The notes under the pieces: generated by a model
The model's input: the letters and a program-made list of their open reading frames with translations, nothing else
Told to the model about the DNA's origin: nothing
The model's database searches: none
NCBI RefSeq assembly: GCF_024584705.1
Contig: NZ_CP097384.1
Coordinates: 4,030,001-4,094,000, forward strand
Source: Blastopirellula sp. J2-11
GTDB lineage: Bacteria; Planctomycetota; Planctomycetia; Pirellulales; Pirellulaceae
Length of the DNA: 64,000 nt
Direction: 5' to 3'
Shown here: positions 4,724 to 57,271 of the stretch, piece after piece
Numbering within the stretch: position 1 is the stretch's first letter
Layout of the letters: each line of letters starts with the position of its first letter
Position numbers and translations under genes: made by a program

Positions 4724-4745
4724 TCGGCCGATTTTTTAAACCAGG

Positions 4746-4779
4746 AAAGAGGGACGCCTATCGCGTCCCTCTTTTATTT
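4746..4779 (+). terminator. Rho-independent terminator of the DUF1080 gene
   Basis: A perfect 12-bp stem (AAAGAGGGACGC at 4746-4757 with GCGTCCCTCTTT at 4763-4774) closes a 5-nt loop and is followed by a T-rich run. It lies 23 bp after the stop codon. Confidence 0.88.
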
Positions 4780-4888
4780 CTTCGTAGCCCGAAGCGCAAG
4801 CGAGGGAAATGCGGTCTCTATTCAATGACGATCGAACACGAATGAAGGACGTTAATACGGCCAGAATCAACCGAAAATCGTCACACTA

Positions 4889-5057
4889 GTGTTGCGTCAC
4901 GCGACAATTTTCGGGCGCCATGTTCTTATTAGCCGTAGTGCGTTAGCACCGGTTTCTGATGAGAACTCATTTGCGAAAGACACTTGGTGACAGAAACCGC
5001 GACTAACGCCGTGCGGCTGATTTCGTGGAAGCCGAAAATAGCGGTTTGACACAACAC
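4889..5057 (-). mobile_element. 169-bp MITE-like element, copy 1 (nested)
   Basis: Non-coding element of 169 bp with imperfect terminal inverted repeats (GTGTTGCGTCA at the left, complement of TGACACAACAC at the right), flanked directly by TA on both sides (4887-4888 and 5058-5059). The interior is itself a long imperfect palindrome: the arms around AGCCGTAGTGCGTTAGCACC and GACTAACGCCGTGCGGCT pair. It is about 95% identical (9 differences in 169) to the inverted copy at 19418-19586. TA duplication is the habit of IS630/Tc1-mariner transposases. No transposase is present, so movement in trans is inferred. Confidence 0.82.
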
Positions 5058-5147
5058 TAGCCCGCTGCGCCAGCGAGGGAATAGAGTTGGCGATCCTAAC
5101 ACGGATTGAAGTGGCGAGCCGCTTTCCCTCGCTTACGCTTCGGGCTA
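5058..5147. repeat. Hairpin repeat (covarying family), copy 1
   Basis: Left arm 5058-5080 and right arm 5125-5147 pair over 23 positions with a few mismatches. The loop contains GCGATCCTAACACGGATTGA, a core also found in the loop of the hairpin at 15555-15650. The arms differ in sequence from that copy but keep pairing. Confidence 0.72.
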
Positions 5148-5220
5148 GTATTTCGTCACACGACAATTTTCGGTTTCGGGCTACGAAGAGATATGCCGTG
5201 CCTAATCATTTAATAACGCA

Positions 5221-6096
5221 ATGCGACTTCGCGACAAAGACTACCTTCGCACGCACGACGGACTCATCTTTAATGTCCTCGGATATGATCACGAACCAAA
5301 CGCAGCAACCAGCGGGCTGAAGTATGTTGACGGCGTCAAGTGGCTCGACAGCTATGATCAGGCGCTCCGGTTTCTTCGCGAGCAGTATCCGCACTATGTG
5401 GACCAGCTGATACGCGTTCCCGACGATCGAGTCGCCCAGGTCTATCGCAGTGAAGAACGTCTGCCGCAACTCCAGCAAATAGAAACCAGCGGACTTCTTC
5501 CAAAGTCGCTCGATTTTGTGAACCTGTTGCAGTCGATCTTGCGCTGGCCGTCCGAAGCCTTTGGGCTGACCGACTCGCTGCTGTGGGGCAGCGGCGGCGC
5601 CGATTCCGATATTGATCTGGTGATCTACGGCGAAGCTCGCTGCCGCACTTGGCTGGACCAAGCCGAGCGAGTGTTCGCGGCGCCTGAGATCGAGCCGATT
5701 GCGCCGCAGTTCATACAGCGTCCGCCGCATCTGGACGATGAGCAGTTCGCAATCTACTGTCGTCGCAAACGAAACCAAGGCGCCTTTCGCGGGACGCGAT
5801 TCAGTGTGCGCGGCGTGCGTGATTGGCATGAGTTTCCCAAGCCTTCGCCATTGGTTGCCGGAACGGCGACCGAGCATGAACTGACAATCGCCGACAACCG
5901 GCAGTCGATGTTCGCTCCGGTGATTTATGAAACGGTGGAGAAGATAGACATCGTCTCGTTTCTGATTGGGTACGAAGCGACCTTCGCGCCGGGCGATCGA
6001 GTGCGTGTCCAAGGCGCGCAGGTTAATGCGGAGACCATTTTGGTTGGCTCTCGCTATGGCTCGGCCGAAGTGATCCGTCTTATTTCTTCGGCATGA
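5221..6096 (+). CDS. Predicted nucleotidyltransferase-fold protein (COG1665-like)
   Basis: Stand-alone protein of 291 residues with a minimal nucleotidyltransferase motif, SLLWGSGGADSDIDLVIYG, near residue 120-138. The GS and DxD elements match the metal and nucleotide site of the pol-beta superfamily. The N-terminal 100 residues (starting LRDKDYLRTHDGLIFNVLGYDH) resemble archaeal and bacterial uncharacterised proteins of the COG1665 type. No antitoxin-like partner is adjacent, so a MNT/HEPN toxin-antitoxin role is unlikely. It starts directly after the repeat block, and its last 17 bp overlap the 3' end of the convergent ABC transporter gene. The substrate (nucleotide and acceptor) is unknown. 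Confidence 0.7.
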   Translation: MRLRDKDYLRTHDGLIFNVLGYDHEPNAATSGLKYVDGVKWLDSYDQALRFLREQYPHYVDQLIRVPDDRVAQVYRSEERLPQLQQIETSGLLPKSLDFVNLLQSILRWPSEAFGLTDSLLWGSGGADSDIDLVIYGEARCRTWLDQAERVFAAPEIEPIAPQFIQRPPHLDDEQFAIYCRRKRNQGAFRGTRFSVRGVRDWHEFPKPSPLVAGTATEHELTIADNRQSMFAPVIYETVEKIDIVSFLIGYEATFAPGDRVRVQGAQVNAETILVGSRYGSAEVIRLISSA

Positions 6097-7633
6097 TCCG
6101 CTTGGCGGCGGCCGAGACCGGCGAACCGTCGGTATCGACCGCTCGGTTGGCGTCACGCATTTCGTCGGTCGAAATCGAGTTGATCATTTTAAGGAGCTGA
6201 TCGACGGCGACCGGATCTTCGACCAGCCGTTTCGACGCCAATAAAATCGCATCGTACGGCGGCAACGCGCGCGCCGGATCGGCGATTTCGACCAAGCCGC
6301 CAGCCGCGATTCGCCCGTCGGTACGAAACGCGACCACCACATCCGCTTTGTCATTGGCGATCGCGCCATACATCAACGTAGCGTCCATCGATTGCTTCTT
6401 TTTGAAGTCAAACTGGTAAATATCGCGAACGCGGGCCCACTCGGGACGTTCCCAAAATTCGATGTCAGTCACGGCGTTCAGCTTGTCGGCATGCTTGGCG
6501 AGATCGTCCAGCGTTTTGATTCCCAGTTCAGCCGCTTTTTCCTGTTTCATTACAAAGACATAGTCGTTGCGAAAACCGAGCGTCCCTAGCGAGTAAACCT
6601 GATGATCCGCTTTGAGTTCGGTCGCCAGATCGATCAGCATCTCTGGCGACGAAACGAACTCTTCGCGGCCTAGCACGTTCGCCCACAGCGTGCCGCTATA
6701 GTCGACGTAGCAGTCGATCTGGCCCGTCTCGAGCGCGCGAAAGATCACGGCCGAGCCGATCCCTTCCTTCAGTTCCACTTTGCGCCCAACTTGCTGCAAC
6801 TCCTCCTGGATCACCAGAGCCAAGATGCGCTGCTCGGTAAAGCCCTTCCCGCCGATGATGTAGGTGCGATCGTCAAACTGAGAAGCCGTCGCCAGATCTC
6901 GGTCGCCGTGCGACGTATAGTTCGTTTGCCCCAGCGGCAACAGCGAGATCAGAAACGGACTGAGAATGATCGCGACGATCCCCAGCGCCGCTCCCAACCC
7001 CATTTTGCGGCTACGCGTTTGCACGGCGATTTCGAGCATCCCCAACAAAGCGTCGATCGAGAGCGCCAATGCGGCGGAGAAGAAACAACCGACGCCGAGC
7101 GCCACCGGATTGAGCGTTTGCAAGCCGGCGAAGATGTAGTTGCCCAAGCTGGTCGCACCGACCGGCTGCGCGATCGTCGCGGCGCCGACGACCCAAACCG
7201 CGGCGGTTCGAACTCCGGCGACAATCGTCGGCGCCGCCAGCGGCAGTTCGACCAGACGCAGACGTTGGCGATCGTTCATCCCCAAGCCTTGCGCCGCTTC
7301 CAAGCAAGCCGCGTCGACCGATTGAATGCCGGTGATCGTATTTCGCAACATCGGCAGCAGACTGTACAGGACGAGCGCCACGAGGGCCGGAAACCAGCCG
7401 ATCTTTCCCCACGCGAATACCATCGCGGCGAGCAACGCCAAGCTGGGAATCGTTTGAATGATGCTGGCCACCGTCAGCGCGATCCGTTCGGCCTGCTTGC
7501 GACGCGAACACCAGACGCCGAGCGGCAAGCTGATGGCGCCGCCGATCAGCAGCGCCATGAAGGAGAGAAAGATGTGCCCCGCCAAGCGTTGCGGCAGGAA
7601 ATGCAACTGTTCCAGGATCTCAGAAATAGGCAT
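6080..7633 (-). CDS. Osmoprotectant ABC transporter, fused permease and substrate-binding protein
   Basis: Fusion of an OpuCB/ProW-type permease (about residues 1-225, several membrane helices, with the coupling-loop region LEAAQGLGMNDRQRLRLVELPLA) to an OpuCC/ProX-type binding domain. The binding domain starts near residue 257 at IIGGKGFTEQRILA. The predicted ligands are glycine betaine, choline or related quaternary amines for osmotic protection. The binding domain is tethered to the membrane by the last permease helix, as in other OpuF/EgtU-like fusions. It follows the ATPase gene by 27 bp. The ergothioneine importer EgtUV has the same architecture, so ergothioneine is an alternative ligand. 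Confidence 0.88.
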   Translation of the reverse strand: MPISEILEQLHFLPQRLAGHIFLSFMALLIGGAISLPLGVWCSRRKQAERIALTVASIIQTIPSLALLAAMVFAWGKIGWFPALVALVLYSLLPMLRNTITGIQSVDAACLEAAQGLGMNDRQRLRLVELPLAAPTIVAGVRTAAVWVVGAATIAQPVGATSLGNYIFAGLQTLNPVALGVGCFFSAALALSIDALLGMLEIAVQTRSRKMGLGAALGIVAIILSPFLISLLPLGQTNYTSHGDRDLATASQFDDRTYIIGGKGFTEQRILALVIQEELQQVGRKVELKEGIGSAVIFRALETGQIDCYVDYSGTLWANVLGREEFVSSPEMLIDLATELKADHQVYSLGTLGFRNDYVFVMKQEKAAELGIKTLDDLAKHADKLNAVTDIEFWERPEWARVRDIYQFDFKKKQSMDATLMYGAIANDKADVVVAFRTDGRIAAGGLVEIADPARALPPYDAILLASKRLVEDPVAVDQLLKMINSISTDEMRDANRAVDTDGSPVSAAAKRIMPKK

Positions 7634-7660
7634 GACGATCTGGCTTTGTGAGGAGTGAGT

Positions 7661-8425
7661 CTAGTTGGTTTCCAAATCGTGGATCAATCGTCCATGCCGA
7701 CGAGGCGTTTCCAACAGCTGAGCGACATAGTCGTCGCCGGCGTCCAGCAGCAAATCACGCGGAGTCCCCAATCGCAACAACTTGCCGTCGCGCATCACGG
7801 CGATCTTGTCGGCCAGCAGTAATGCTTCGGCCATGTCATGCGTCACAATCACCGCGGTAAACCCAAGCTCTTTCTGCAATCGCGTAAATTCTGACTGCAA
7901 ACTATCGCGCGTCACCGGATCAAGAGCGCCAAACGGTTCGTCCAGCAACATCACTTTCGGGTCGACCGCCAAGGCGCGCGCGAAGCCGACGCGTTGGCGT
8001 TGACCGCCAGAGAGTTGATGCGGATAGCGATGGGCGAACTGAGAGGCAGGCAAGTCGACCATCTCGAGCAGACGCGAACCTTTCTCGCGATACTCAAGCG
8101 AATCGTGCCCCAGCATCTTGGGCAAGATGCAGACATTCTCCAGAATCGTCATGTGCGGAAAGAGGCCGATGCTTTGAAAGACGTAGCCGATTCGCCGGCG
8201 CAGCTGCACCGGATCTTGCTCGACGACGTTTTCTCCGTCGATCTCAATGACGCCGGAAGTTGGTTCGATCAGGCGATTGATCATTTTAACGGTCGTGCTT
8301 TTGCCGGAGCCGGAACCGCCCAGCAACGCGAGAACCTCGCCGGGTTCGATGCGTAGCGAAAGGTCGCTCACCGCGAACGACTTTCCCCCATCCCACGTTT
8401 TGCAGACCCCTTCTAACGCGATCAT
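7661..8425 (-). CDS. Osmoprotectant ABC transporter ATP-binding protein
   Basis: ATPase subunit of the OpuCA/ProV/EgtV type, partner of the fused permease/binding protein just downstream. Walker A (GGSGSGKST, residues 36-44), the Q-loop (VFQSIGLFPHMTI), the signature LSGGQRQR (138-145), Walker B LLDEP (160-164) and the switch His196 are all intact. I place the start at ATG 8425 (MIALEGVCKTW), because the fold begins there. Upstream in-frame ATGs at 8455 and 8584 would add a basic, unrelated stretch, and the latter would overlap the preceding gene. This gives 254 residues without a C-terminal CBS pair. Confidence 0.9.
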   Translation of the reverse strand: MIALEGVCKTWDGGKSFAVSDLSLRIEPGEVLALLGGSGSGKSTTVKMINRLIEPTSGVIEIDGENVVEQDPVQLRRRIGYVFQSIGLFPHMTILENVCILPKMLGHDSLEYREKGSRLLEMVDLPASQFAHRYPHQLSGGQRQRVGFARALAVDPKVMLLDEPFGALDPVTRDSLQSEFTRLQKELGFTAVIVTHDMAEALLLADKIAVMRDGKLLRLGTPRDLLLDAGDDYVAQLLETPRRHGRLIHDLETN

Positions 8426-8465
8426 GACGCAGTATCCCCCAATCTTCGTGTCCATTCGCCAAGTA

Positions 8466-11129
8466 CTACGCCGATTTTTGCTCGGCGGAAGTCGGCATCT
8501 CGCTGACCCAACTCCGCAGAGTGCGATAATCGGTTTTGCCGGTTCCCAGGACCGGTATCTGCTCAACCAAGCGAACTTCGTCAAGTCGCATGATTCCTTG
8601 CATGCCGGCTTCGCGAATCAAAGCGTTCGCGTCACGCAGCGAAATCTCGGCGCAAGTAAACAGGACGATCTTTCGCCCCCCATCCAGTTCGACTCCTTCG
8701 ACGGCGATTTGCGGCCCCTCGTCACCGCTGGGAAACGCTTTGGCGAGCGGTTCTTCGAGCGCCGGCAACGAGACCATCTCGCCGCCGATCTTCAAAAACC
8801 GCTTCATCCGCCCGCGGAAGTGGAAAAAGCCGTCGGGGTCTTTCATCACCAGATCGCCGGTGTTGTACCAAGCGGCGCCGTTGATTTCGACAAACGGCTG
8901 CGGGCCGTCATGTTTCAGATAGCCGCTGAAAATGCTTTCGCCGCGCACCAGCAACAGCCCGGTCTCGCCGTCGACGATCGGCTGATGCGTTTCGGCGTGC
9001 ACGATCAACATCTCGACGCAATCGAGCGGTTTGCCAATCGTACCGCGGCGACTGTCGGTCGGACGACTGCCGGAGACGACCGGCGAGCACTCGGTGATAC
9101 CGTACCCTTCCAAGAGGACCGCGCTGGGCAACGCCGCTTCAAAACGATCATGCAATGCGTCCGGGCATTTCTCGGCGCCGACCATCACTGTTCGCAACGT
9201 TTGCAAATCCTCCGGCGTACTGACGCCAAAGATGTACTGCAAAAACGTGGGGGTCGCAAACATCAGCGTCGCGCTATAGCTGCGAATGATGCGGGCCAAT
9301 CCGCGGGCATCGGTCGGATCGGGATAGTGCACCACGCGGATCCCGGTCAGGACCGGCATCAGGAACGCGGCGGTCAACCCAAAGCTGTGGAACGGAGGTA
9401 AGAAGCCGAACAGGACATCGCTTTGGCCAAATTGAATCAGATTGACGCCGGCGTTGATGTCGGCAATCAAGTTGCGATGCGACAACGGAACCGCTTTCGG
9501 CAGCGTTTCGGATCCTGAGGTAAACAACACGGCCGCTGGAGCGTCGCGGTCGGGCTTTGGCAGATTCCGTAAGAACGATTGCGGAGCGAGATAAGTCGCC
9601 GCGTAAGTCGACAACTGCTCCCACTTGCCGATTCCGCCGCGCATCGCTTCCAGACTAACCACTTCGGCGGCGGGTATTTCGATGCCGAGTCGATCCAGGA
9701 ATCGCTGGGATGTCAGCACATTTTTCACTTCCAGCTTTTTGATTGCATGCTGCAGGCCTGCGTCGCCGGTCGTCCAGTTCAACATGACCGGCAATTTGCC
9801 GGCCAACTGAATCGCCAAAAACACCGTATCGGCGGCGACCGAGGCCGGTAGCAAAATACCAACCGCGTCTCCTTCGAGCTTGGCGATCCGTTTGGAGAGG
9901 AGCGTCGCACCGGTCAGCAACTTGCGATAGGTCAGAACGCCGGAGAGTTGATCAGCGACGGCGGCCGAGTCGGGGCGTTCGATCGCGCGCAGCACGAATG
10001 ATTCGGCCAACGTTTCTCCGAGCGCCTTGGGAATTGTTCCATCATCTTTTGGCGGCTTGCTCCAGATTTCGGGAATCTTGGCTTCGTCATTTTCGTCCGA
10101 GGCCAGTTGCCCTTCGGCCAACAACCACATTTCGCCCACGGTGGTCGGCACGTGATTGCTGCGAAAACCGAACTCTCGCTCCATTTCGAGCGCCATGTCC
10201 ATACGCTCGAGACTGTCGAGCCCCAACGCGTCGAGGGTCGTCGTCGGGCTGGTTTCGGCCGGCTCCAAAGGACGCCCCAGATGTTCGGTCAGCATCTCGG
10301 CGATCGCCTGTTTTGTGGCCGGTTGGACCGCATCGGCGTCGACGGCGCCTTCGCGTTGGACGGCGTCGAAGTCAAATTCACGCGGGCCGAACCAGGGATT
10401 GTAAGGAACGAACTTTGGCTCTTCGCCGCCGTGGGCGTTGTACCACGCTTCCAGAAAGCGATTCAGCGATTCTTTGCTTTCGAGCGGCAGTTGGTTGCGA
10501 TCGATCGCTTGGGCGGTGAGCGAAACCTTGCGTTTGGGCACGAAGAATAGAAAGCTCGAAATCAAGCTCCAGAGCGCCATACGAGCGGCGCCGGCCAGAT
10601 CAGGAACTCCGCCGGTCTGCGCGCAGCCGAAGCGGCTTCCCCACATGCCTTCGGTGCGGACCAGGATGACTTGCAGATCAGGAGAGCGCTTTAGCAACTC
10701 GTACGCCATCCGAGCGCCGCCGATCACTTCGGTTCCTTGACGTTTTAACCGCCCCGAGGGATAGATCAAAAAGTCATTTCCAGCTTCGACGCCTGCGACC
10801 ACCTGATCAATCATCTCGGTCGTCTGGCGATGCGCGTCACGGCTATGACTTTTCAGATTCGGAACTTCAAACGCGTGGCTCGCTTTGCAGAAGGGATAGA
10901 AAATCCAACTCCGAAAGGTGTCGGCAAAGACCAACGGTCGCAGCGATCGCCCAAACCGCAGATGGCTCAAGACCAGGGGAGGATCGACGTAAGCCGGATG
11001 ATTAGGCAATACCAAAACCGGGCCCTGAACGCTCCGTAACTGATCCAAGCCGTGCAATTCGACCCGATAGCGAAAGCGAAGCAAAAACCGCAGCGTCGCC
11101 CACATGATTTTTTGTAGTAGACCGTTCAT
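8466..11129 (-). CDS. PlsC acyltransferase - acyl carrier - AMP ligase fusion (Aas-like)
   Basis: Multidomain lipid enzyme of 887 residues. Residues 1-230 form a PlsC-type glycerophosphate acyltransferase with the H-x4-D box (NHPAYVD, His44/Asp49) and IYPSGR at 122-127. Residues 260-345 form an acyl carrier domain with LGLDSLE, Ser306 being the predicted phosphopantetheine site. From about residue 370 comes an AMP-dependent acyl ligase with the P-loop LFTSGSETLPKAVPLSHRN. It should activate a fatty acid, load it on its own carrier and esterify a lysophospholipid, as E. coli Aas does with separate ACP. The box IYPSGR replaces the more usual FPEGTR. It lies upstream of the ABC genes on the same strand; a functional link is not evident. 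Confidence 0.85.
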   Translation of the reverse strand: MNGLLQKIMWATLRFLLRFRYRVELHGLDQLRSVQGPVLVLPNHPAYVDPPLVLSHLRFGRSLRPLVFADTFRSWIFYPFCKASHAFEVPNLKSHSRDAHRQTTEMIDQVVAGVEAGNDFLIYPSGRLKRQGTEVIGGARMAYELLKRSPDLQVILVRTEGMWGSRFGCAQTGGVPDLAGAARMALWSLISSFLFFVPKRKVSLTAQAIDRNQLPLESKESLNRFLEAWYNAHGGEEPKFVPYNPWFGPREFDFDAVQREGAVDADAVQPATKQAIAEMLTEHLGRPLEPAETSPTTTLDALGLDSLERMDMALEMEREFGFRSNHVPTTVGEMWLLAEGQLASDENDEAKIPEIWSKPPKDDGTIPKALGETLAESFVLRAIERPDSAAVADQLSGVLTYRKLLTGATLLSKRIAKLEGDAVGILLPASVAADTVFLAIQLAGKLPVMLNWTTGDAGLQHAIKKLEVKNVLTSQRFLDRLGIEIPAAEVVSLEAMRGGIGKWEQLSTYAATYLAPQSFLRNLPKPDRDAPAAVLFTSGSETLPKAVPLSHRNLIADINAGVNLIQFGQSDVLFGFLPPFHSFGLTAAFLMPVLTGIRVVHYPDPTDARGLARIIRSYSATLMFATPTFLQYIFGVSTPEDLQTLRTVMVGAEKCPDALHDRFEAALPSAVLLEGYGITECSPVVSGSRPTDSRRGTIGKPLDCVEMLIVHAETHQPIVDGETGLLLVRGESIFSGYLKHDGPQPFVEINGAAWYNTGDLVMKDPDGFFHFRGRMKRFLKIGGEMVSLPALEEPLAKAFPSGDEGPQIAVEGVELDGGRKIVLFTCAEISLRDANALIREAGMQGIMRLDEVRLVEQIPVLGTGKTDYRTLRSWVSEMPTSAEQKSA

Positions 11130-11274
11130 CGGTCGGGATTCCTCGCAAGTAGCTTCGTGACCACCGTCTACTTAGGCGTAAACGACGAGGGCTAGGGATA
11201 AGCAAAGTGGGAAAATTTGCGCAAATCCAAAGCTGCACAAACGTTTATAACCCGATCCAGCCACGACAATCCAG

Positions 11275-11303
11275 GCGAATGCCTGCGAGATCCTGGCATT
11301 TGC
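11275..11303 (-). terminator. Possible hairpin terminator of the GntR gene
   Basis: Arms at 11275-11283 and 11295-11303 pair over 9 positions with one G-U type mismatch around an 11-nt loop. They lie about 20 bp past the stop of the minus-strand GntR gene. There is no U-tract, so this is tentative. Confidence 0.3.
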
Positions 11304-11323
11304 CCTTCCATAGATGGCCGACG

Positions 11324-12190
11324 TTATTTCCCTTCGGAACGAATCTGGGCCAACATTTTTTCGACGCGAGGGATCTGAGAGCGAATATGCTCCGACAGCA
11401 CGCTCTCCGCTTTTTTCCAATTTTGCGAAAGTAGCGATTCAAGAATCACGCGGTGTTGCTCGGCCATTTCCTCGACCGCCGACATCTCGACGGTCGCCAA
11501 ATCAAAGATCGCCGCGTGAAAGACGCCGTGCCGCTCAAAGAAATCGCGAATATAGTGATTTCCGGAGAGATCAATCCAATAGCTATGCAGGCGGTTATCG
11601 ATCTGCGGCTTCCCATCCGACGACGGCTGATTGCCGGCCAAGATCTCTTCCAGCATCGTCGCGTCCAATTGATCCTGTACCGATCGCAGCGCCATCAGCT
11701 CAAACATTTCGCGCACTTCGGAATAGTGCTCAAGATCCTTCGGCAAAAACACGCGACTTCGCCAGCCGCGCCGCTGAACGTGTTCGACAAAACCTTGGCC
11801 TGCTAATTTTCCGAGCCAATGCCGCAAGACGGTTCGGCTGACCCCAAAGTGCTCGGCCGTCGCTTCCTCGCGCAAAAAGGAGTCGTCCCCGGCCAAGCTG
11901 CGGCGGATGATGAACTCGCGAATCCGGATTTCGAGCGACGCTTCTTGTGTATTCTCGCGCTTAGGCCGGCGTTTGAGACGCCGCTCGGGATTGGGAGCGA
12001 GTCGCCCTGCAGCGTCCCGAATCAGCAAACCTTCCTCGACTAATTGATCAAACGCAGTCCGAACCGGAGAGGCGCTAACGTCGAATACCCGGGCGACATT
12101 TGCGATGGAGAATGGTTCTGGCAACGATTCTCGCGCGTGAATGCGATCCGAAAGTTCTTCCGCGATGCGATCAGACAACGACACGGGCAA
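11324..12190 (-). CDS. GntR/FCD-type regulator with two winged-helix domains
   Basis: Transcription regulator of 288 residues. Two winged-helix segments are visible: residues about 8-60 (FSIANVARVFDVSASPVRTAFDQLVEEGLL) and 87-150 (IREFIIRRSLAGDDSFLREE then FGVSRTVLRHWLGKLAGQGFVE). An all-helical FCD-like effector domain follows, with His residues (QHRVILESLL, LSEHIRSQ) in the positions that bind metal and ligand in that family. FCD regulators usually have a single winged helix and about 230 residues, so the second domain is unusual. It is divergently transcribed from the hydroxyproline-type catabolic genes and probably controls them through the operator at 12272-12290. The inducer would be hydroxyproline or a pathway intermediate (inferred). 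Confidence 0.85.
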   Translation of the reverse strand: MPVSLSDRIAEELSDRIHARESLPEPFSIANVARVFDVSASPVRTAFDQLVEEGLLIRDAAGRLAPNPERRLKRRPKRENTQEASLEIRIREFIIRRSLAGDDSFLREEATAEHFGVSRTVLRHWLGKLAGQGFVEHVQRRGWRSRVFLPKDLEHYSEVREMFELMALRSVQDQLDATMLEEILAGNQPSSDGKPQIDNRLHSYWIDLSGNHYIRDFFERHGVFHAAIFDLATVEMSAVEEMAEQHRVILESLLSQNWKKAESVLSEHIRSQIPRVEKMLAQIRSEGK

Positions 12191-12242
12191 AGATCCTTGA
12201 GAATGGGGCGAGCAAGGGCGCCTAAGATTTTACGCAATTTGA

Positions 12243-12290
12243 TTGACGAAGCGAGATGAATCGCCTAGCATGTCTTTGTACACAAAAGAC
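12243..12290 (+). promoter_or_regulatory. Sigma-70 promoter with overlapping GntR operator
   Basis: TTGACG (12243-12248) and TAGCAT (12266-12271) are separated by exactly 17 bp. They are followed at once by the imperfect palindrome GTCTTTGTACACAAAAGAC (12272-12290), which contains TTGT-AC-ACAA, close to the TNGTnnACNA type of site bound by FCD-GntR proteins. Binding there would cover the start of transcription, so repression by the divergent regulator is expected. The arrangement also argues that translation of the next gene begins at 12318 and not at the in-frame codons inside the promoter. Confidence 0.68.
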
Positions 12291-12317
12291 GCCTTGTTCG
12301 TCCAAAGGACCTACCGA

Positions 12318-13220
12318 ATGAATGTCGATTGGAGCGGAGTATTTCCGGCAGCGACGACGCAGTTCAATGCGGATATGACCCTCAACATTCCTGCGACGCT
12401 GCGGCACGTTGACCAGATGATCGATGCCGGCGTGCATGGGATGATTATGCTGGGTACCGTCGGCGAGAACTGCTCGCTGAGTTATGAGGAAAAATTGGAA
12501 GTTCTCCGAGCCTGCGTCGACCATGTCCATGGCCGCGTCCCGCTCTTGACTGGAGTCGCCGAGTATACCACGCAAACGGCTTGTCGGTTTGCTGCGGATG
12601 CTGCTCGTATCGGCGTTGATGGTCTGATGGTGCTGCCGGCGATGGTCTATCGTTCAGACAGCCGCGAAACGGCGGCTCACTTTCGCTCGGTCGCCGCCGC
12701 GTCAGACCTGCCGATCATGATTTACAACAATCCGATCGCCTACAAAGTCGACATCACGCCGGAAGAATTCGCCGACTTGGCCGACGAGCCGAAGTTTGTC
12801 GCGATCAAAGAGTCGAGCGAAGATACGCGTCGAATCACCGATATCCGCAACGTCTGCGGCGATCGCTTCCTGTTGTTCTGCGGCGTCGATGACGTCGTGC
12901 TGGAAAGCATGGTATTGGGAATCGACGGCTGGGTTTCTGGACTGGTCAACGCTTTCCCCGCCGAAAATCGCTTGCTCTGGGACTTGGCGGCCGAAGGACG
13001 TTACGCCGAAGCAGTCGAAATCTATCGCTGGTATACTCCACTGTTGCATCTCGACACCGACAGGAAGCTTGTGCAATATATCAAGCTAGCGGTCCAGGAA
13101 TGCGGATTTGGCGCCGAGACGACCCGGCCTCCGCGCCTTCCGTTGATCGGCGCCGAACGCGACCAGATTTTGCGCATCATCCGCCAGGCGATCAACACGC
13201 GACCGGTGCTCACCGCCTAA
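12318..13220 (+). CDS. DapA-family lyase, probable 1-pyrroline-4-hydroxy-2-carboxylate deaminase
   Basis: Class I aldolase-fold enzyme of the dihydrodipicolinate synthase family. Lys164 in FVAIKESS is the Schiff-base lysine and Tyr136 in IMIYNNP the catalytic tyrosine; GTVGENCSL replaces the usual GTTGE loop. True DapA makes lysine precursors, but this gene is followed by a hydroxyproline-epimerase-type gene and an FAD amino-acid dehydrogenase. Deamination of pyrroline-4-hydroxy-2-carboxylate to alpha-ketoglutarate semialdehyde is therefore the better guess. Start ATG 12318 (MNVDWSGVFPAATTQF) fits the family N-terminus and lies downstream of the promoter. Length is 300 residues. The next gene starts 9 bp after the stop. 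Confidence 0.82.
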   Translation: MNVDWSGVFPAATTQFNADMTLNIPATLRHVDQMIDAGVHGMIMLGTVGENCSLSYEEKLEVLRACVDHVHGRVPLLTGVAEYTTQTACRFAADAARIGVDGLMVLPAMVYRSDSRETAAHFRSVAAASDLPIMIYNNPIAYKVDITPEEFADLADEPKFVAIKESSEDTRRITDIRNVCGDRFLLFCGVDDVVLESMVLGIDGWVSGLVNAFPAENRLLWDLAAEGRYAEAVEIYRWYTPLLHLDTDRKLVQYIKLAVQECGFGAETTRPPRLPLIGAERDQILRIIRQAINTRPVLTA

Positions 13221-13229
13221 GAGGATCCT

Positions 13230-14192
13230 GTGCCCCCACTTCCCCAATCGGTGACAACGCTCTCGGTGGTCGATTCCCACACCGGGGGCGAACCGACCCG
13301 CGTTATCGATCAAGATCTTGACCTGGGAACTGGTCCGTTAGCGCAGAGGCGAACCCTCTTCCAGGAAAAGTTTGACTGGATTCGCCGCGCGACTTGCACA
13401 GAGCCGCGCGCCTCAGAAGCGATGGTCGGCGCCATTCTAACGCCGCCAACCAATCCTCTAGCAGTAACTGGAGTCATCTTTTTCAATAACGTCGACGTTC
13501 TCGGCATGTGCGGTCACGGCATGATCGGAGTTGTCGCGACGCTCGCCTATCAACGCAAGATCCAGCCGGGAAAACATCGGATCGAAACTCCAGTCGGCGA
13601 CGTGCTGGCGACCCTTCACGAAAATGGGGAAGTCAGCGTCCGCAATGTTCCCAGCTATCGCCATCTGGCCGATCTGGAACTTAACGTCCCAGGCTACGGC
13701 AGCGTGATGGGGGATGTCGCGTACGGCGGCAATTGGTTTTACCTGGTCAAATCGCCGGCGATGACGTTAAGCTACTCCGACCGAGACGAACTCCTTCGGT
13801 TCACCAAAGCGATTCGCCATACGCTCGACAAGCAAAAGGTGACCGGCGCCCACGAAGGCCGGATCGACCACATCGAACTTTATGGCCAACCGAGCAGCGA
13901 ACTCGCCGCCAACTCGCGGAATTTTGTCCTTTGTCCCGGGGGAGAATACGATCGATCTCCTTGCGGCACCGGTACTTCGGCCAAAATCGCCATCCTGGCG
14001 GCGGAAGGCAAATTGGCGCCGGGACAAATCTGGCGACAAGAGTCCATCACTGGAAGCATTTTTCAGGCCAGTTATGATTTAGTGGATGATCAGATCGTAC
14101 CGACGATTCGCGGCTCGGCCTATGTCACCGCTGTCTCTCAATTGATCATCAACCCGGCCGACCAATTTGCGTTCGGCATCCAAGCCCGCTAA
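13230..14192 (+). CDS. Proline racemase family, probable 4-hydroxyproline 2-epimerase
   Basis: Cofactor-independent epimerase that would convert trans-4-hydroxy-L-proline to cis-4-hydroxy-D-proline. Both catalytic cysteines are present: Cys94 in GMCGHG and Cys245 in RSPCGTGTSA. Having two Cys rules out the trans-3-hydroxyproline dehydratase branch, which has a Thr in place of the second. Family-typical VVDSHTGGEPTRV lies at the N-terminus. The start is GTG 13230 behind GAGGATCC, 9 bp after the DapA-family stop, so translation is probably coupled. Length (320 residues) is normal. Choice of hydroxyproline over proline rests on the operon. Confidence 0.87.
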   Translation: MPPLPQSVTTLSVVDSHTGGEPTRVIDQDLDLGTGPLAQRRTLFQEKFDWIRRATCTEPRASEAMVGAILTPPTNPLAVTGVIFFNNVDVLGMCGHGMIGVVATLAYQRKIQPGKHRIETPVGDVLATLHENGEVSVRNVPSYRHLADLELNVPGYGSVMGDVAYGGNWFYLVKSPAMTLSYSDRDELLRFTKAIRHTLDKQKVTGAHEGRIDHIELYGQPSSELAANSRNFVLCPGGEYDRSPCGTGTSAKIAILAAEGKLAPGQIWRQESITGSIFQASYDLVDDQIVPTIRGSAYVTAVSQLIINPADQFAFGIQAR

Positions 14193-14217
14193 ACCGCCAG
14201 CAAGAGTTGAAGCACCC

Positions 14218-15468
14218 GTGAGCACTCGGCGAACCATCGTCATCGGTGGAGGCGTCGTCGGCGCCGCCTCGGCCTATTTTCTGGCCAAATCAGGTCGCGA
14301 CGTCGTCCTGATCGACAAAACTGAATTTGGCGCCGCCTGTTCGCACGCGAATTGCGGCTACGTTTCACCCAGCCATGTCTTGCCGCTGGCGCAGCCAGGC
14401 GTTTTACTGCCGTCGCTGCTGTCGATGCTAAAACCGAATTCTCCCTTCTCGATTCGGTTCCGCTTTTCCCCTGCCCTCTGGAGATGGTTGACTCGATTCG
14501 CGCTGCGCTGCCGCAGCGGCCCGATGATGAAATCGGCCGCCGCAATTCATGCGCTGTTGCAGTCGTCGCGACAACTCTATAGCCAGATCATCGCCGACGA
14601 GCAAATGGACTGCGAATTTGAAGAGCGGGGATTGCTGTTCGTCTACAAAGACCGGCATGAGTTCGACGATTTCGCCCATGTGAACGAGTTAGTTTCACGC
14701 GAGTTCAACGTCTTCGCCGCTCCCTATGCTGGGGAGTCGCTGAACGAATTGGAGCCGGCATTGAAGCCCGGCCTGGCAGGTGGCTGGCTCTTTAGCGGCG
14801 ACGCCCATCTACGTCCTGATCGCCTGATGACCGCTTGGCGCCAAGTGCTGGAGCGAATGGGGGTCGAAATCCGGGAAAATTGCGAGTTTCTGCAATTTGC
14901 AAAAAGCGGCAAGTCAGCGACCGCCGCCGAAACGTCGACCGGGACGATCGACGCCGAAGATTTTTTGATCGCCGCTGGGGCCTGGACTCCGTTTCTCAAT
15001 CAACAGATCGGCTGCAAGATTCCGATTCAGCCCGGCAAAGGCTATTCGATCACGATGCCGCGGCCCGCGATCTGTCCTAAGTACCCGATGCTGCTAGAGC
15101 AACATCACGTCGGCGTCACGCCGTGGGAAAGCGGCTATCGCTTGGGATCGACGATGGAATTCGCCGGTTACGACAACTCGATCCGCGAAAAACGACTCTC
15201 GCTGCTCAAGCATGGCGCCGAAGTCTACCTTAAGAATCCGCACGTCGAACCGATCGTCGAAAAATGGTGCGGCTGGCGTCCGATGACGCCAGACAGCACG
15301 CCGTTTATCGATCGTTCGCCGCGACTGGGCAACGTCTATGTCGCCGCCGGACACAACATGCTGGGTCTGTCGATGTCCCCCGGCACCGGCAAGTTGGTTG
15401 CGGAACTGATGAACGACGAAACGCCGCATCTGGACGCGGAGCGATATTCGCTATCGCGCAAGATTTGA
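14218..15468 (+). CDS. FAD-dependent D-amino-acid (hydroxyproline) dehydrogenase
   Basis: DadA/DAO-type flavoenzyme predicted to oxidise cis-4-hydroxy-D-proline to the pyrroline intermediate. The dinucleotide-binding motif IVIGGGVVGAASAYFL begins a few residues after the start. The C-terminal flavin contact GHNMLGLSMSPGTGKLVAEL is also typical. I use GTG 14218 (protein opens (V/M)STRRTIVIGGG) because the longer frame from 14167 would overlap the epimerase and adds 17 residues without fold. Length is 416 residues. It completes a three-enzyme set; the final alpha-ketoglutarate semialdehyde dehydrogenase is not in this window. Confidence 0.85.
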   Translation: MSTRRTIVIGGGVVGAASAYFLAKSGRDVVLIDKTEFGAACSHANCGYVSPSHVLPLAQPGVLLPSLLSMLKPNSPFSIRFRFSPALWRWLTRFALRCRSGPMMKSAAAIHALLQSSRQLYSQIIADEQMDCEFEERGLLFVYKDRHEFDDFAHVNELVSREFNVFAAPYAGESLNELEPALKPGLAGGWLFSGDAHLRPDRLMTAWRQVLERMGVEIRENCEFLQFAKSGKSATAAETSTGTIDAEDFLIAAGAWTPFLNQQIGCKIPIQPGKGYSITMPRPAICPKYPMLLEQHHVGVTPWESGYRLGSTMEFAGYDNSIREKRLSLLKHGAEVYLKNPHVEPIVEKWCGWRPMTPDSTPFIDRSPRLGNVYVAAGHNMLGLSMSPGTGKLVAELMNDETPHLDAERYSLSRKI

Positions 15469-15488
15469 ACGCGTGCAATACCAGAGTG

Positions 15489-15660
15489 CTCTGTGAAGCG
15501 ACAATTTTCGGTAACAACAATGGAACACGGCCAGAATCAGCCCAAAATCGTCATACCAGCCAGAGGCGCAAGCCGATGGAATACGGTCAGCGATCCTAAC
15601 TCAGACTGAAGTGGCCAATCGCATTCCATCGGCTTGCGCCTCTGGCTGGTGTTCAATCGG
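15489..15660. repeat. Hairpin repeat (covarying family), copy 2
   Basis: In the gap between the convergent dehydrogenase and SRPBCC genes. It starts with a remnant resembling the MITE end (CGACAATTTTCGG at about 15499), then the block ACGGCCAGAATCAGCCCAAAA also seen at 4858. Next comes a perfect 28-bp inverted repeat (15555-15582 with 15623-15650) around a 40-nt loop carrying the core GCGATCCTAACTCAGACTGA. The hairpin could also terminate both convergent genes. No gene is seen in 15469-15745. Confidence 0.8.
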
Positions 15661-15745
15661 TTTGAAATAGCCCACCTTCCAACTTGCGTAGCGGGCTCGT
15701 GTCACGTCGTTCCTATTTCCACGATTCTATCACTAGCGATTTGGA

Positions 15746-16189
15746 TTACATCGCCGCCAGCGTCGCTTCCAAGTTCTCCAACAGCTTCGTCCAGCCAGCT
15801 TCGGATCGATCTTTGTATTCGATCCATTTCGGATCCATCTCGTGAACCAGCGTTAGGATGCAGCCGGCGTCGGTCGGAGCAATCTCTACGGTCACCCGGG
15901 TTGGCTCTTCATTGCGGATCGTTGCAAAGGCAAAAACCAGGCGCCGCGGTCGGTCGATCTCCAGATACTCGCCAAAGTGTTCGGCGAGAGTCTCTCCCCG
16001 TTGTTCGGCAAGGAGAAATTCTCCCCCAACAACCGGGTTCATTTCAACCGTTTTCATCTCGCCGGTCGCGGTTGCGAACAGCCACTGCCGCGCGACTTCT
16101 GGATCGAGCCAGGCGTCGAAGACCAGCTCGGCCGAGTAAGGAAATGCGCGGCGAATCGTCAAAACGATCGGCTCATTTTTTTCGGACAC
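15746..16189 (-). CDS. SRPBCC/AHSA1-domain protein
   Basis: Small START-like fold protein (about 147 residues) of the AHSA1 family, with the typical opening TIRRAFPYSAELVFDAWLDPEVARQW and a closing EAGWTKLLENLEATL. The frame is open to 16231, but GTG 16189 (protein VSEKNEPIVL) gives the expected family N-terminus and a 17-bp overlap with the upstream ArsR gene, so I prefer it. ArsR-SRPBCC pairs are common and the SRPBCC protein probably binds a hydrophobic ligand or acts with the regulator. Function unknown beyond the fold. Confidence 0.8.
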   Translation of the reverse strand: MSEKNEPIVLTIRRAFPYSAELVFDAWLDPEVARQWLFATATGEMKTVEMNPVVGGEFLLAEQRGETLAEHFGEYLEIDRPRRLVFAFATIRNEEPTRVTVEIAPTDAGCILTLVHEMDPKWIEYKDRSEAGWTKLLENLEATLAAM

Positions 16190-16529
16190 GTTTAACTTTC
16201 TGTTTGGTTTTGGCTTGCAAATAGGCGTCAAGACGATCCAGGCTCTGCTCCCAGAAGTCGCTGTATTGAGCGATCCAATCGGCCGCCGCTTTCAGCGGTT
16301 CTCCCTGCAAGCGGCAAGGGCGCCACTGCGCCTTCCGGCTGCGCTCCACCAAACCCGCTCGCTGCAACACTTTCAAATGCTTGGTGATCGCCGGCATCGT
16401 CATCTCGAACGGCTCGGCCAATTCGGTGACCGATTTTTCGCCCGCAGAAAGCCTCGCGAGAATTGCGCGGCGCGTGGGATCGGCCAGCGCCGCAAAGGTC
16501 GCCGAGAGTTTTTCGTCCGCCGTAACCAT
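16173..16529 (-). CDS. ArsR-family winged-helix regulator
   Basis: A 118-residue transcription regulator with the ArsR fold. ALADPTRRAILARLSAGEKSV is the classic N-terminal helix, followed by the recognition region MTMPAITKHLKVLQRAGLVERS. No CxC metal-sensing motif (ELCVC type) is present, so this is a non-metal ArsR of the SRPBCC-linked kind. Translationally coupled to the SRPBCC gene. A perfect palindrome lies just upstream of its start codon and suggests autorepression. The C-terminus is strongly basic (KTKQKVKRVRKK). Confidence 0.88.
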   Translation of the reverse strand: MVTADEKLSATFAALADPTRRAILARLSAGEKSVTELAEPFEMTMPAITKHLKVLQRAGLVERSRKAQWRPCRLQGEPLKAAADWIAQYSDFWEQSLDRLDAYLQAKTKQKVKRVRKK

Positions 16530-16530
16530 T

Positions 16531-16560
16531 TTACCTCATAGTTAAATTAACTATTGGTAA
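16531..16560. promoter_or_regulatory. Palindromic operator of the ArsR gene
   Basis: A perfect dyad ATAGTTAA-A-TTAACTAT (16538-16554) lies inside an outer inverted pair TTACC (16531-16535) and GGTAA (16556-16560). It ends 1 bp before the ATG of the minus-strand ArsR gene and covers its ribosome-binding site. AT-rich dyads of this size at this position are typical ArsR autoregulatory operators; binding is inferred. Confidence 0.72.
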
Positions 16561-16721
16561 AATACGATTATCGCCGTTGCTTGTCAATGTCCGCAGAAAT
16601 CAATCTCAACTCGATTTAGAAATCCAACGCACCGAACCTGCTTCGTTTGACCAGGCCCTGTCGATCGACGAAACTCAAGTCAACACGCTTCTCACTTCCC
16701 CCATTGCTGAGCCGTCTCTCT

Positions 16722-19418
16722 ATGTCATGCAATTCACGATTACTACTTTTCATTTTGGCGCTGAGCTCTTGCCTGGGTTACAGCGCATCTGCCGCAGAGA
16801 GCCAGCCGCCGAATATCGTCATCTTTCTTTCAGACGATCACACGTTGACCGACTCTTCGGTTTATGGCGCTACCGATATCGATACGCCGAACATGCAACG
16901 TTTGGCCGATGCTGGGATGACGTTTGATCAAGCGTTTGTCGCTTCCCCCTCCTGCGCCCCAAGTCGCGCTGCGCTGCTGACCGGATTGATGCCGGCTCGC
17001 AACGGCGCCGAGCGGAATCATGCTCGACCTCAAGCCGAGATCAAGAAGCTGCCCGCCTATTTGCAGGAGCTTGGTTACGAGGTCGTCTCGTTCGGCAAAG
17101 TAGGTCACTACGCTCAAACGCCCGAGTATGGCTTTGATCTGGCGCGACACTTCGGCTACCACGACGATGTCGCGGTGGGCGAAGCGGTGAAATGGCTGCA
17201 AGCCCGCGAGAGCGCCAAGCCGCTCTGTTTGTTCGTCGGCACCAATTGGCCGCATGTTCCGTGGCCTCGAGCGACCTCCATCGATCGCCAGTCGATTCGA
17301 ATCCCGCTAAAGCATGTCCACACGCCGGAGACGCGGGATGCTCGCGCAAAATACTATCAGGCCATCCGCACGATGGATGACGAACTGGGAGAAGTCTTTG
17401 ACGCCGCCTACGCGAAACTGGGCGAAAACACCCTCTTCATTCATACCAGCGATCACGGCGCCCAATGGCCGTTCGGCAAGTGGAATCTATATGACGACGG
17501 CATTCGCACGCCGCTGATCGTGGTTTGGCCAGGCCAGGTGCAGGAAAAAAAGAGGACCAGCGCGATGGTCTCGTGGGTTGACCTGCTACCCACCCTGGTA
17601 GAAGCGGCCGGCGGAAAACCGGCGGAGAATTTAGACGGGCGTTCGATCCTACCGGTGCTGCGCGGAACGACCGAAGCGCATCGCGACCTGATTTTCACCA
17701 CGCATAGCGGCGACAGCAACTTCAACGTTTATCCCACGCGGAGCGTGCGAACCGAGCGGTTCAAATACATCCGCAATCTGCACCCTGAGTTTCTCTACGA
17801 GTCGCACGTCACGAAGGCCGACAAGGAAGAAGCTTATTGGAATAGCTGGGTCAAAAAAGCGAAGACCAGCGCCGAAGCGGCCCGCAAGGTAAATCGATAT
17901 CAACAACGGCCGCCGGAAGAACTATACGACCTGACGACCGATCCGCTGGAGCAAAACAATCTGGCCGACGATCCGTCGCATGCCGCTACCAAACAGCAGT
18001 TGAAAAGCCAACTTGACGCTTGGATGAGCGAGCAACAAGATCAGCAGATCGTCTACGGAATGCCGACGTTGCTCTCGCAGGGGAAGAATCCGCCAAACGT
18101 CATCACGCTGTTCATCGACGACATGGGCTGGGCCGATCTTTCCTGTTTCGGCGGGCAGGATGTCGAGACGACCAACATTGATCGCTTGGCGAGCGAAGGC
18201 TTGAAGTTCACCAACTTCTACGTCAACTCGCCGATCTGCTCTCCTTCGCGCACGGCGCTGACCACGGGATATTATCCGGCCCGACATCGCATTACGTCTT
18301 ATCTGGCCAACCGCAAAATGAACGAGCAGCGCGGCATGGCGCAGTGGCTCGACGTCCGTGCGGCGACGTTGCCGCGAATGCTCTCCGAGCAGGGCTACGC
18401 GACCGGCCATTTCGGCAAATGGCATCTCGGCGGACAACGTGACGTCGGCGACGCTCCGCTGATTACCGAGTATGGCTTTGACGCTTCGCTGACCAATTTT
18501 GAAGGACTTGGTCCCCGCGTCCTTCCCCTTTGCGACGCCTATGACGGCAAAGATCCCCAGCGTCACGACCTGGGAAGCGCTACGTTGGGGCATGGTCCGA
18601 TTGAGTGGAAAGATCGCTCGCAAATCACCGCGCGTTTTGTGGAAGAAGCGCTGCTGTTTATCGATGCTTCGGTCGCCGCCGACCAACGGTTCTTCATCAA
18701 CGTTTGGCCCGACGACGTTCACTCGCCGTTCTTTCCGCCAGAAGCAAGACGCGGCGATCAAGCGAAGCGAACGCTCTATCTGGGCGTGCTGAAAACGATG
18801 GACGAGCAACTGGGCCTGTTGATCGATCGCGTGCGCAGCGATCCCAAGTTGCGTGACAATACGCTAATCCTGTTAGCCAGCGACAATGGTCATGAACCAG
18901 GCGCCGGCCGCGGCGGACCATTGCGCGGCGCCAAAGGAGACCTGTACGAAGGAGGCGTTCGCAGTCCTTTGATCGTTTGGGGCCCCGGCTGGATCGACGC
19001 GACCGCTGTCGGAGAGACGAACGACACGACCATCGTCTCGAGCGTCGATCTGGTTGCTTCCCTCCTCGCGCTGACCGGCGCAGCAACGCCTAAGGGATAC
19101 CAGGGTGATGGAGAAAATCTCTCGGCGGCGCTGCTCGGCAAGACCCAAGCCCAACGCAGCGGTCCGCTCTTTTGGCGTCGTCCGCCTGATCGACCAGGGC
19201 CGCCAAAGTCTCCTAATCCTGACCTGGCCGTACGCGACGGCCACTGGAAATTGCTCTGTAATCTCGACGGAGGAGCGGTTCAACTTTACGATCTGACCAA
19301 GGATATCGGCGAAATGAAAAACATGGCGCAGCGGCGTCCGCGCATCGTCAATCGCTTAAAACAGGCGGTGCTTGCCTGGAATGAGACGCTTCCGACCGAC
19401 GGCGTCGCAACGCCCTAG
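16722..19418 (+). CDS. Tandem double sulfatase (two type I sulfatase domains in one secreted protein)
   Basis: One 898-residue polypeptide carrying two complete sulfatases. The signal peptide (MSCNSRLLLFILALSSCLGYSASA) leads into domain 1, with NIVIFLSDDH and the formylglycine site Cys78 in SCAPSR. Domain 2 starts near residue 462 (NVITLFIDDMGWADLSCFGG), with Cys506 in ICSPSR and the metal motif NGHEPGAGRGG. The second domain has no signal peptide of its own, as expected for a fused protein. Start at ATG 16722 fits the signal peptide; the frame extends to 16647. Substrates are probably sulfated algal polysaccharides or glycosaminoglycans (inferred). An anaerobic-type maturase elsewhere would be needed. 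The stop codon abuts a MITE. Confidence 0.9.
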   Translation: MSCNSRLLLFILALSSCLGYSASAAESQPPNIVIFLSDDHTLTDSSVYGATDIDTPNMQRLADAGMTFDQAFVASPSCAPSRAALLTGLMPARNGAERNHARPQAEIKKLPAYLQELGYEVVSFGKVGHYAQTPEYGFDLARHFGYHDDVAVGEAVKWLQARESAKPLCLFVGTNWPHVPWPRATSIDRQSIRIPLKHVHTPETRDARAKYYQAIRTMDDELGEVFDAAYAKLGENTLFIHTSDHGAQWPFGKWNLYDDGIRTPLIVVWPGQVQEKKRTSAMVSWVDLLPTLVEAAGGKPAENLDGRSILPVLRGTTEAHRDLIFTTHSGDSNFNVYPTRSVRTERFKYIRNLHPEFLYESHVTKADKEEAYWNSWVKKAKTSAEAARKVNRYQQRPPEELYDLTTDPLEQNNLADDPSHAATKQQLKSQLDAWMSEQQDQQIVYGMPTLLSQGKNPPNVITLFIDDMGWADLSCFGGQDVETTNIDRLASEGLKFTNFYVNSPICSPSRTALTTGYYPARHRITSYLANRKMNEQRGMAQWLDVRAATLPRMLSEQGYATGHFGKWHLGGQRDVGDAPLITEYGFDASLTNFEGLGPRVLPLCDAYDGKDPQRHDLGSATLGHGPIEWKDRSQITARFVEEALLFIDASVAADQRFFINVWPDDVHSPFFPPEARRGDQAKRTLYLGVLKTMDEQLGLLIDRVRSDPKLRDNTLILLASDNGHEPGAGRGGPLRGAKGDLYEGGVRSPLIVWGPGWIDATAVGETNDTTIVSSVDLVASLLALTGAATPKGYQGDGENLSAALLGKTQAQRSGPLFWRRPPDRPGPPKSPNPDLAVRDGHWKLLCNLDGGAVQLYDLTKDIGEMKNMAQRRPRIVNRLKQAVLAWNETLPTDGVATP

Positions 19419-19586
19419 TGTTCTGTCAAACCGCTATTTTCGGCTTCCACGAAATCAGCCGCACGGCGTTAGCCGCGGTTTCTGTCACCAATTGTCTTTC
19501 GCAAATGAGTTCCCATCAGAAACCGGTGCTAACGCACTACGGCTAATAAAAACATGGCGCCTGAAAATTGTCGCGTGACAGAACAT
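19418..19586 (+). mobile_element. 169-bp MITE-like element, copy 2
   Basis: Same length and about 95% identical to the element at 4889-5057, in opposite orientation. Ends are GTGTTCTGTCA and TGACAGAACAT, flanked by TA (19416-19417 and 19587-19588). The left TA plus the first G of the element form the TAG stop of the double sulfatase; the right flank TAG shows that the stop existed before insertion. The interior forms a long imperfect hairpin and encodes nothing credible. Confidence 0.85.
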
Positions 19587-19754
19587 TAGCCGCCTGTCCG
19601 CTGTCCCAACGACAACTTCCTGACCAAAAAAGCAATATCTGCGGTCGAAGAGTGGTAGCATGCGGCTTAGAATGGCTAGTTCGCATTCGCCTGGCGCTGT
19701 GGAGCATGCGCCGATTCTAGGGTGAAGTCTGGTCTGGAAAATTGTGGACAATCG

Positions 19755-56960: not shown

Positions 56961-57271
56961 ACCAAGAGTCCCCTTTCGCTCCGGCTTCTCCCACAAAATC
57001 AGCCGCACGGCATTAGCCGCGGTTTCTGAAGGGAACTCTCTGTCGACGGAAAATGGGAGACAAAAACCGCGGCTAGCGCAGCGACTTTACCCAGACCGCC
57101 AAAATTTGTCTCTAGACAAAGCGCACGGCTTTTAGGTCGACTGTGGGATGAGGATCCGGCAGTTGTCTGCGTTGGCTGGGGAAACCAGATGACAGACGGA
57201 GCGGGGACTGCTGCGCGATTGGCTTTTCGTGGGTCGGTCGGTGAAAGCCCCAGCAACTCTTGGCGACCCGG

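Follow-up and report, generated by a model that had tools for sequence, protein, structure and literature searches.

A 169-bp repeat of Blastopirellula sp. J2-11 is very probably an IS630-type miniature element with a REPIN-like interior

The stretch of the Blastopirellula sp. J2-11 genome analyzed here (contig NZ_CP097384.1, positions 4,030,001 to 4,094,000 of the forward strand; 64 kb in all, hereafter the window) holds two copies of a 169-bp repeat. Copy 1 directly adjoins a second repeat, hairpin H, and copy 2 sits at the stop codon of a sulfatase open reading frame (ORF). The repeat is very probably a non-autonomous, TA-targeted miniature inverted-repeat transposable element (MITE) of the IS630 family, because it has fixed ends, a TA duplication within CTAG, empty sites, and a terminal motif that also occurs on IS630 elements; the initial annotation of this DNA had proposed a TA-targeted MITE of IS630/Tc1-mariner type, a proposal that the same four features bear out. 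The interior resembles a pair of inverted repetitive extragenic palindromic (REP) units, a structure known as a REPIN. The two copies and their immediate surroundings are as follows:

4889..5057, + strand: 169-bp MITE, copy 1 (BLAST query, 100%)
19418..19586, - strand: 169-bp MITE, copy 2, locus L014 (BLAST 95%)
4887..4888, unstranded: TA, left target duplication of copy 1, inside CTAG (flank sequence)
5058..5059, unstranded: TA, right target duplication of copy 1, inside CTAG (flank sequence)
19416..19417, unstranded: TA, left target duplication of copy 2; together with the initial G of the element it makes up the TAG with which the sulfatase ORF stops
19587..19588, unstranded: TA, right target duplication of copy 2; the outermost element base here is T, not C
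4926..5026, + strand: REPIN-like core of copy 1, two inverted REP-like units and a spacer (core-only BLAST rows cover query positions of about 38-138; half-units at 4928 and 5002)
19449..19549, - strand: REPIN-like core of copy 2 (half-units at 19454 and 19528)
16647..19418, + strand: sulfatase ORF, with its TAG stop at the insertion site of copy 2 (Pfam Sulfatase, E 2.9e-88)

Both copies are 169 bp long, lie in opposite orientation, and are 95% identical (BLAST E = 2.3e-72), so that the equal length, approximate identity, orientation, and bordering TA first described for them all held. Read inwards, the termini are GTGTTGCGTCA / GTGTTGTGTCA in copy 1 and ATGTTCTGTCA / GTGTTCTGTCA in copy 2, and the terminal inverted repeats (GTGTTNTGTCA...ATTTTC) are imperfect. 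The element strand folds as one long hairpin (RNA z = -7.1, DNA z = -3.8), matched by none of 200 shuffles for either RNA or DNA. A BLAST search of the element's own genome (G000; 6.43 Mb, single contig) returned 50 rows. Near-full-length matches (159-169 bp) make up 32 of them, and the remainder are truncated, interrupted, core-only, or reverse-strand palindrome matches. This genome-wide search had been suggested by the initial annotation, and it gave fixed borders and TA flanks, with nothing of what had been named there as evidence against transposition. Flanks were inspected for 31 of the 32 near-full-length copies, the one left out (at 3379065) being visible inside L026. Exactly 169 bp were found in 27 of these 31, 168 bp in three, and one is truncated. 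The repeat thus combines many copies of fixed ends and fixed length, terminal inverted repeats, and an absence of coding capacity (at most 56 codons in 169 bp), as is typical of MITEs. Rfam gave no match at the gathering threshold within the window.

Mean divergence from the consensus is 2.4% (29 copies of at least 167 bp, 169 aligned columns). One copy (L012) equals the consensus exactly and three others (L021, L022, L023) are mutually identical, while shared differences among the aligned copies define at least two subfamilies; related copies in a sister genome (G002) are about 89-92% identical. We read these values as a probable burst within the species lineage that arose from an older family, and the recent transposition claimed at the outset is plausible.

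The target is nearly invariant. CTA is found on the left in 29/31 copies and TAG on the right in 31/31, and TA lies directly outside both ends, within CTAG, in 29/31; the exceptions on the left are the truncated copy (L019) and a copy with CTC (L028). A paralogous empty site adjoins the copy at G000:C1:4407338, in L020 (CACACTAGCCCGC), and the paralogous comparison sets this site in its context, ...AATCGTCACACTAGCCCGCTGCG..., against window copy 1, ...AATCGTCACAC-TA-[169]-TA-GCCCGCTGCG.... An orthologous empty site was found in sister genome G002 for the copy at 666156 (...AGAGACTAGATCGCC...), which lies away from hairpin H; a single ACTAG is present there, and both flanks map to the same 5 bp. 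Such a single-CTAG site was seen at one of the two loci tested in G002, and at L029 the genomes G001 and G003 are too diverged for an empty-site comparison. Within the window CTAG is scarce relative to base composition, which predicts 241 sites where 75 occur, although tri- and dinucleotide counts predict 84. Separately, a 28-base context, GGCGACCCCGAGCTAGTCGAACGGTCCC, surrounds two CTAG sites 2.5 kb apart (54424-54451 and 56912-56939).

The proposed mechanism is as follows. An IS630 transposase acting in trans would recognize the ends of about 26 bp (GTG[T/C]TNTGTCA...ATTTTC), excise the 169-bp DNA, and insert it at the TA of CTAG with duplication of TA. The first base of the element is G and its last base is C, and the sequence alone therefore dictates that CTAG stands at both borders once C-TA-G has been entered. 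One landing site becomes two, later elements can land flush, and a gene whose TAG stop lies at the target keeps that stop. IS630 itself reportedly targets the TA of CTAG, a finding attributed to Tenzen and Ohtsubo in 1991; the target would be the same as here, although IS630 is autonomous and the 169-bp element is not.

Elements carrying both the terminal motif and a transposase were found elsewhere in the family and phylum. The shell end pattern, allowing two mismatches, is present in 10/241 family genomes (own included) and occurs 35 times in G237. A family-derived end pattern retrieved 24 stretches in a scan of 84,980 genomes that may leave out records of the own genome; by title, 22 are planctomycete (Planctomycetota, Planctomycetia, Phycisphaerae, Gemmataceae, Aquisphaera, and Rhodopirellula), one is a Klebsiella pneumoniae metagenome-assembled genome, and one is Neolewinella (Bacteroidota). 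In L119 and L123, two shell-type ends enclose 1.22-1.23 kb with IS630-type ORFs, the second ORF of L123 being interrupted. The ORFs of L119 carry HTH_32/HTH_23 and DDE_3 domains, and two more of the 24 stretches (L124, L126) show similarity to the L119 transposase. A protein search of 12 chosen genomes found relatives of this transposase in three: G180, G199 (six full-length matches), and G021. The end-pair search used loose ends and gave many chance pairs; among the pairs listed, we relied on those in which TA borders the element at either end and the ends are recognizable. Full-length IS630 elements bounded by TA measure 1235 bp in G199 (six copies) and 1222 bp in G180; across family and phylum genomes other than the own one, full-length elements with the terminal motif range over 1.22-1.24 kb. 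NCBIfam assigns the transposase to IS630 (NF033545, E 1.3e-41 and 6.5e-38). When MITE ends were compared with IS630 element ends, at most 24 of 20000 shuffles reached the observed identity in 11/16 comparisons. Full-length transposase elements, which the initial annotation suggested looking for, exist with the same terminal motif in other family and phylum genomes, but none was found in the own genome.

Several observations weigh against assigning the element to IS630 and to a TA target. The protein search detected no such transposase in G000 or in G001-G003, so mobilization has to be inferred from other genera; relatives of the L119 transposase were likewise not found in G237, G240, G147, G076, or G206. 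Identity between the MITE ends and the IS630 element ends is moderate (11-19 of 27 positions), 62-1274 of 20000 shuffles reach it in the other 5/16 comparisons (the weakest being the left end of L128), and the right end of L119 and the left end of L123 were found with the pattern itself, which makes their match partly circular. A reversed control of the end pattern had one match in each of five genomes, and genomes with a single two-mismatch match, such as G206, may accordingly be chance. In G000 the outer bases hardly vary, so that TA and CTAG duplications are inseparable there by sequence alone. Finally, at the second locus tested in G002 (L013, 555334) the site is element-free, yet its junction has diverged and contains no CTAG; this comparison supports absence of the element and not the exact target. 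Given the moderate identity of the ends, we place the link between MITE and IS630 in the terminal motif. As a source of a same-genome parent, the three DDE_3 loci of G000 were considered and rejected, having neither shell ends nor similarity to the partner transposase; the element looks like an orphan in its own genome. Fixed ends, the TA/CTAG target, empty sites, the motif shared with IS630, and a core without its shell appear in the sequences themselves. From these we infer that an IS630 transposase may have mobilized the element in trans, that the partner was presumably lost from the own genome, and that the shell would have captured the core.

The second repeat, hairpin H, is represented in the window by two features:

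5060..5145, + strand: hairpin H (GCCCG...CGGGC), with TA at both borders, directly beside copy 1
15558..15647, unstranded: hairpin H variant (AGCCAGAGG...CCTCTGGCT) without a MITE, used previously as an approximate empty site

The hairpin at 15.5 kb is a different variant and serves, as had been said of it, only as an approximate empty site. Copy 1 had also been described as nested in a second repeat: it does adjoin H, but H is a frequent neighbor of the MITE and not a one-off host. At least 42 copies of H in G000 cover at least 78 of 91 bases, a lower bound in that 40 of 163 candidates were scored. MITE copies adjoin H in 22/31 cases, and two more adjoin a CTCTGGC variant (L012 and L021, read by eye), giving 24/31. 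With about 7,500 CTAG sites estimated genome-wide by scaling the window, H borders would make up a few per cent of the sites even if all 163 candidates were real. Where they accumulate, MITE and H alternate in arrays with a period of 258-260 bp.

Such arrays raise the alternative that the H-adjacent copies multiplied chiefly as parts of an H-MITE block, through tandem duplication or recombination, and not by transposition. The regular period is what block duplication would produce, and so are the first two MITE copies of the 3.379 Mb array, identical at 168/169 positions, and the two H copies of the 0.723 Mb array, identical at 90/91. At 0.723 Mb, however, the neighboring MITEs match at only 162/169 positions and belong to different subfamilies, and at 4.407 Mb neighbors match at 163/169 with some subfamily marks in common. 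Moreover, 7/31 copies lie away from H in unrelated flanks, and the orthologous empty site belongs to one such copy. Taken together, the arrays suggest contributions from both duplication and separate insertion, and we consider duplication unlikely as the main route. In one H locus (L061, G000:C1:4472978-4476190), which is one of eight Y1 loci, a Y1_Tnp (IS200-like) gene lies between two H copies; it exceeds the Pfam cut-off and falls below that of NCBIfam IS200. The arrangement resembles loci in which REPs flank a REP-associated tyrosine transposase (RAYT).

The interior of the MITE had been called a palindrome of its own, and it appears to be an independent, more widespread REPIN-like repeat that is carried as cargo. 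The core, of about 100 bp (query 38-138), consists of two copies of the unit ATCAGCCGCNNGGCGNTAGC, inverted relative to each other and separated by a spacer. It occurs without the shell repeatedly in G002, in G000 (e.g., at 2137139 and 789041), and once in the window:

56998..57079, unstranded: core alone, without the MITE shell, second half degraded (half-unit at 56998)

Allowing one mismatch, the unit is present in 119/241 family genomes (vs. 10/241 for the shell ends), with at least five matches in 64 genomes and at least ten in 51 by our own count; a reversed control matched about 19 genomes with at most three matches each, so the lowest counts may be chance. Counts are highest in G145 (584), G104 (320), G242 (275), and G072 (270). 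G000 has 135 half-units, and since the other half of the element's core has three mismatches, about one unit per MITE can match, which would place more than half of the 135 outside 169-bp elements. In being an inverted pair of palindromic units that is found alone and in many copies, the core behaves as REPs do. No GTAG/CGTC tag stands beside the core palindrome in the copies displayed, where the units read ATCAG followed by CCGC, and none of the eight Y1_Tnp loci of the own genome is a RAYT flanked by the core within 1.5 kb; one Y1_Tnp fragment (L062) has a core copy at a distance of about 0.5 kb. A short repeat, AGAGCGCTTTTCAGCAAGCTGAACAAAGAGTC, or close variants of it, recurs near core copies in L062, L045, L049, and L005.

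Units of this type also occur within shells of two further genomes (L112, L077), and further shells hold other palindromes. Shells that lack this core are L085 (about 60 bp; G002) and L066 (G000); in either case one border is not TA. G237 and Rhodopirellula sp. JC639 (L121) have a MITE of 149-150 bp that shares the terminal motif but has an interior AAAGGGGNCAGGTACC palindrome. In G237 the interior palindrome has 164 half-sites vs. 35 end matches; among the 12 loci displayed for the palindrome of G236, G237, and G240, at least one shell end is kept in six of seven distinct places, and the idea that this palindrome is a separate REP was consequently not cleanly supported. Two MITE copies of G000 (C1:5351554-5353257, L174; 2611116-2612816, L175) are split by an IS4-family element of 1519 bp (NF033592, E 2.2e-44 in L174), which sits at one and the same position of a REP-like half in both. 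The 10-bp duplication around it is identical in L175 and matches at 9/10 in L174; this IS4-family element may target REP loops.

Given such a core, the whole 169-bp unit might instead be a REPIN or bacterial interspersed mosaic element spread through single-stranded DNA by a RAYT, an IS200-like tyrosine transposase, with the outer ends merely lengthening the hairpin. The REPIN-like interior, the eight Y1_Tnp matches in the own genome, and a REP-like placement (one copy in 31 between divergent genes, by rough gene calls) are in keeping with this. We nonetheless regard it as highly improbable, as the unit has a TA duplication and empty sites, shares its ends with DDE-type IS630 elements, and none of the eight Y1_Tnp loci (match plus 1.5 kb on each side) contains a shell end at up to three mismatches.

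An IS5-type MITE of 167 bp with a 4-bp CTAG duplication, comparable to MITEPsy1 (PMC3189936), is very improbable too: MITEs with CTAG or YTAA duplications exist, and the palindromic CTAG leaves the borders alone ambiguous in the own genome, but the terminal motif is common to IS630 transposase elements, and in related elements elsewhere (L100, L105) one border reads T-TA-G and the opposite one C-TA-G, unequal outer bases that favor a 2-bp over a 4-bp duplication.

As an IS630-type MITE, the repeat has parallels among known systems. The closest functional one is RUP (repeat unit of pneumococcus) with IS630-Spn1, which in the portion of the source consulted is likewise short, non-coding, and intergenic, with IS630-matching ends and a TA target (PMC2229807). 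According to the same portion, the proposed partner of RUP resides in the same species, unlike here, and no REPIN core is described; the 169-bp element also differs from RUP, as presented there, in inserting into CTAG. Correia/NEMIS elements of Neisseria, of about 107-155 bp, are listed there among bacterial MITEs with terminal inverted repeats and TA; they belong to another host, and the passages at hand report no REPIN core (PMC2229807). Insertion of ISY100 in vitro occurs almost only at TA, with TA duplication (PMC2170065). REPINs spread by RAYTs resemble the core in being high-copy pairs of inverted REP-like units, whereas no GTAG tag was seen on the core, no RAYT flanked by it was found among the eight Y1_Tnp loci, and the core rides in a DDE-type shell. 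The GTAG-15 REP dimers of Anabaena variabilis also lie inside a long palindrome, with ends TATAG...CTATA, and the palindrome is not found without REPs; the excerpt consulted describes REPs inserted in target palindromes and mentions no transposase or TA duplication (PMC3733652), whereas the outer palindrome here would be an IS630-type shell moving with its core. Because REP dimers in TA-ended palindromes are known from Anabaena, we do not call the composite categorically new.

In the searchable part of a 2024 review of prokaryotic MITEs, IS630, REPIN, nested, CTAG, Planctomycet, and stop codon are not mentioned (PMC10969869), and among the titles and abstract openings of the open-access papers searched none described this element or a REPIN inside an IS630 MITE. 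For the most part the repeat belongs to a known type of element, though its composite build is unusual. It would give REP-like palindromes another way to spread, through a DDE transposase that works by cut and paste, and it accounts simply for the piling up of such repeats, in that the element recreates its own CTAG target at each border. It also suggests that the REP dimers reported in TA-ended palindromes of cyanobacteria could be IS630 MITEs with REP cargo. More tentatively, and less likely than not, IS630 ends in Planctomycetota could have repeatedly captured REP-type palindromes of their hosts, with L112, L077, and other shells as separate captures, yielding composite MITE-REPINs that are spread by DDE transposition instead of RAYTs and that build self-extending alternating mosaics with a second REPIN; the same might apply to cyanobacteria, judging from the Anabaena study (PMC3733652).

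Placement relative to genes was judged from rough codon-usage gene calls, in which copies within arrays are not independent. Among the 31 copies, 12 lie between convergent and 14 between tandem genes, one between divergent genes, and three are resolved on one side only (not divergent); window copy 2 comes out of the gene calls as a joining artefact and belongs to the tandem class. REPs have been reported mostly from between unidirectional and convergent ORFs (PMC3733652). A TAG stop at the target was kept in 3/31 copies (L013, L029, and L014, i.e., window copy 2), and at L029 CTAG closes genes on both strands. The CTAG geometry explains how an element can enter a TAG stop without doing harm. 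A terminator-like site lies at 4745-4775 of the window, outside copy 1.

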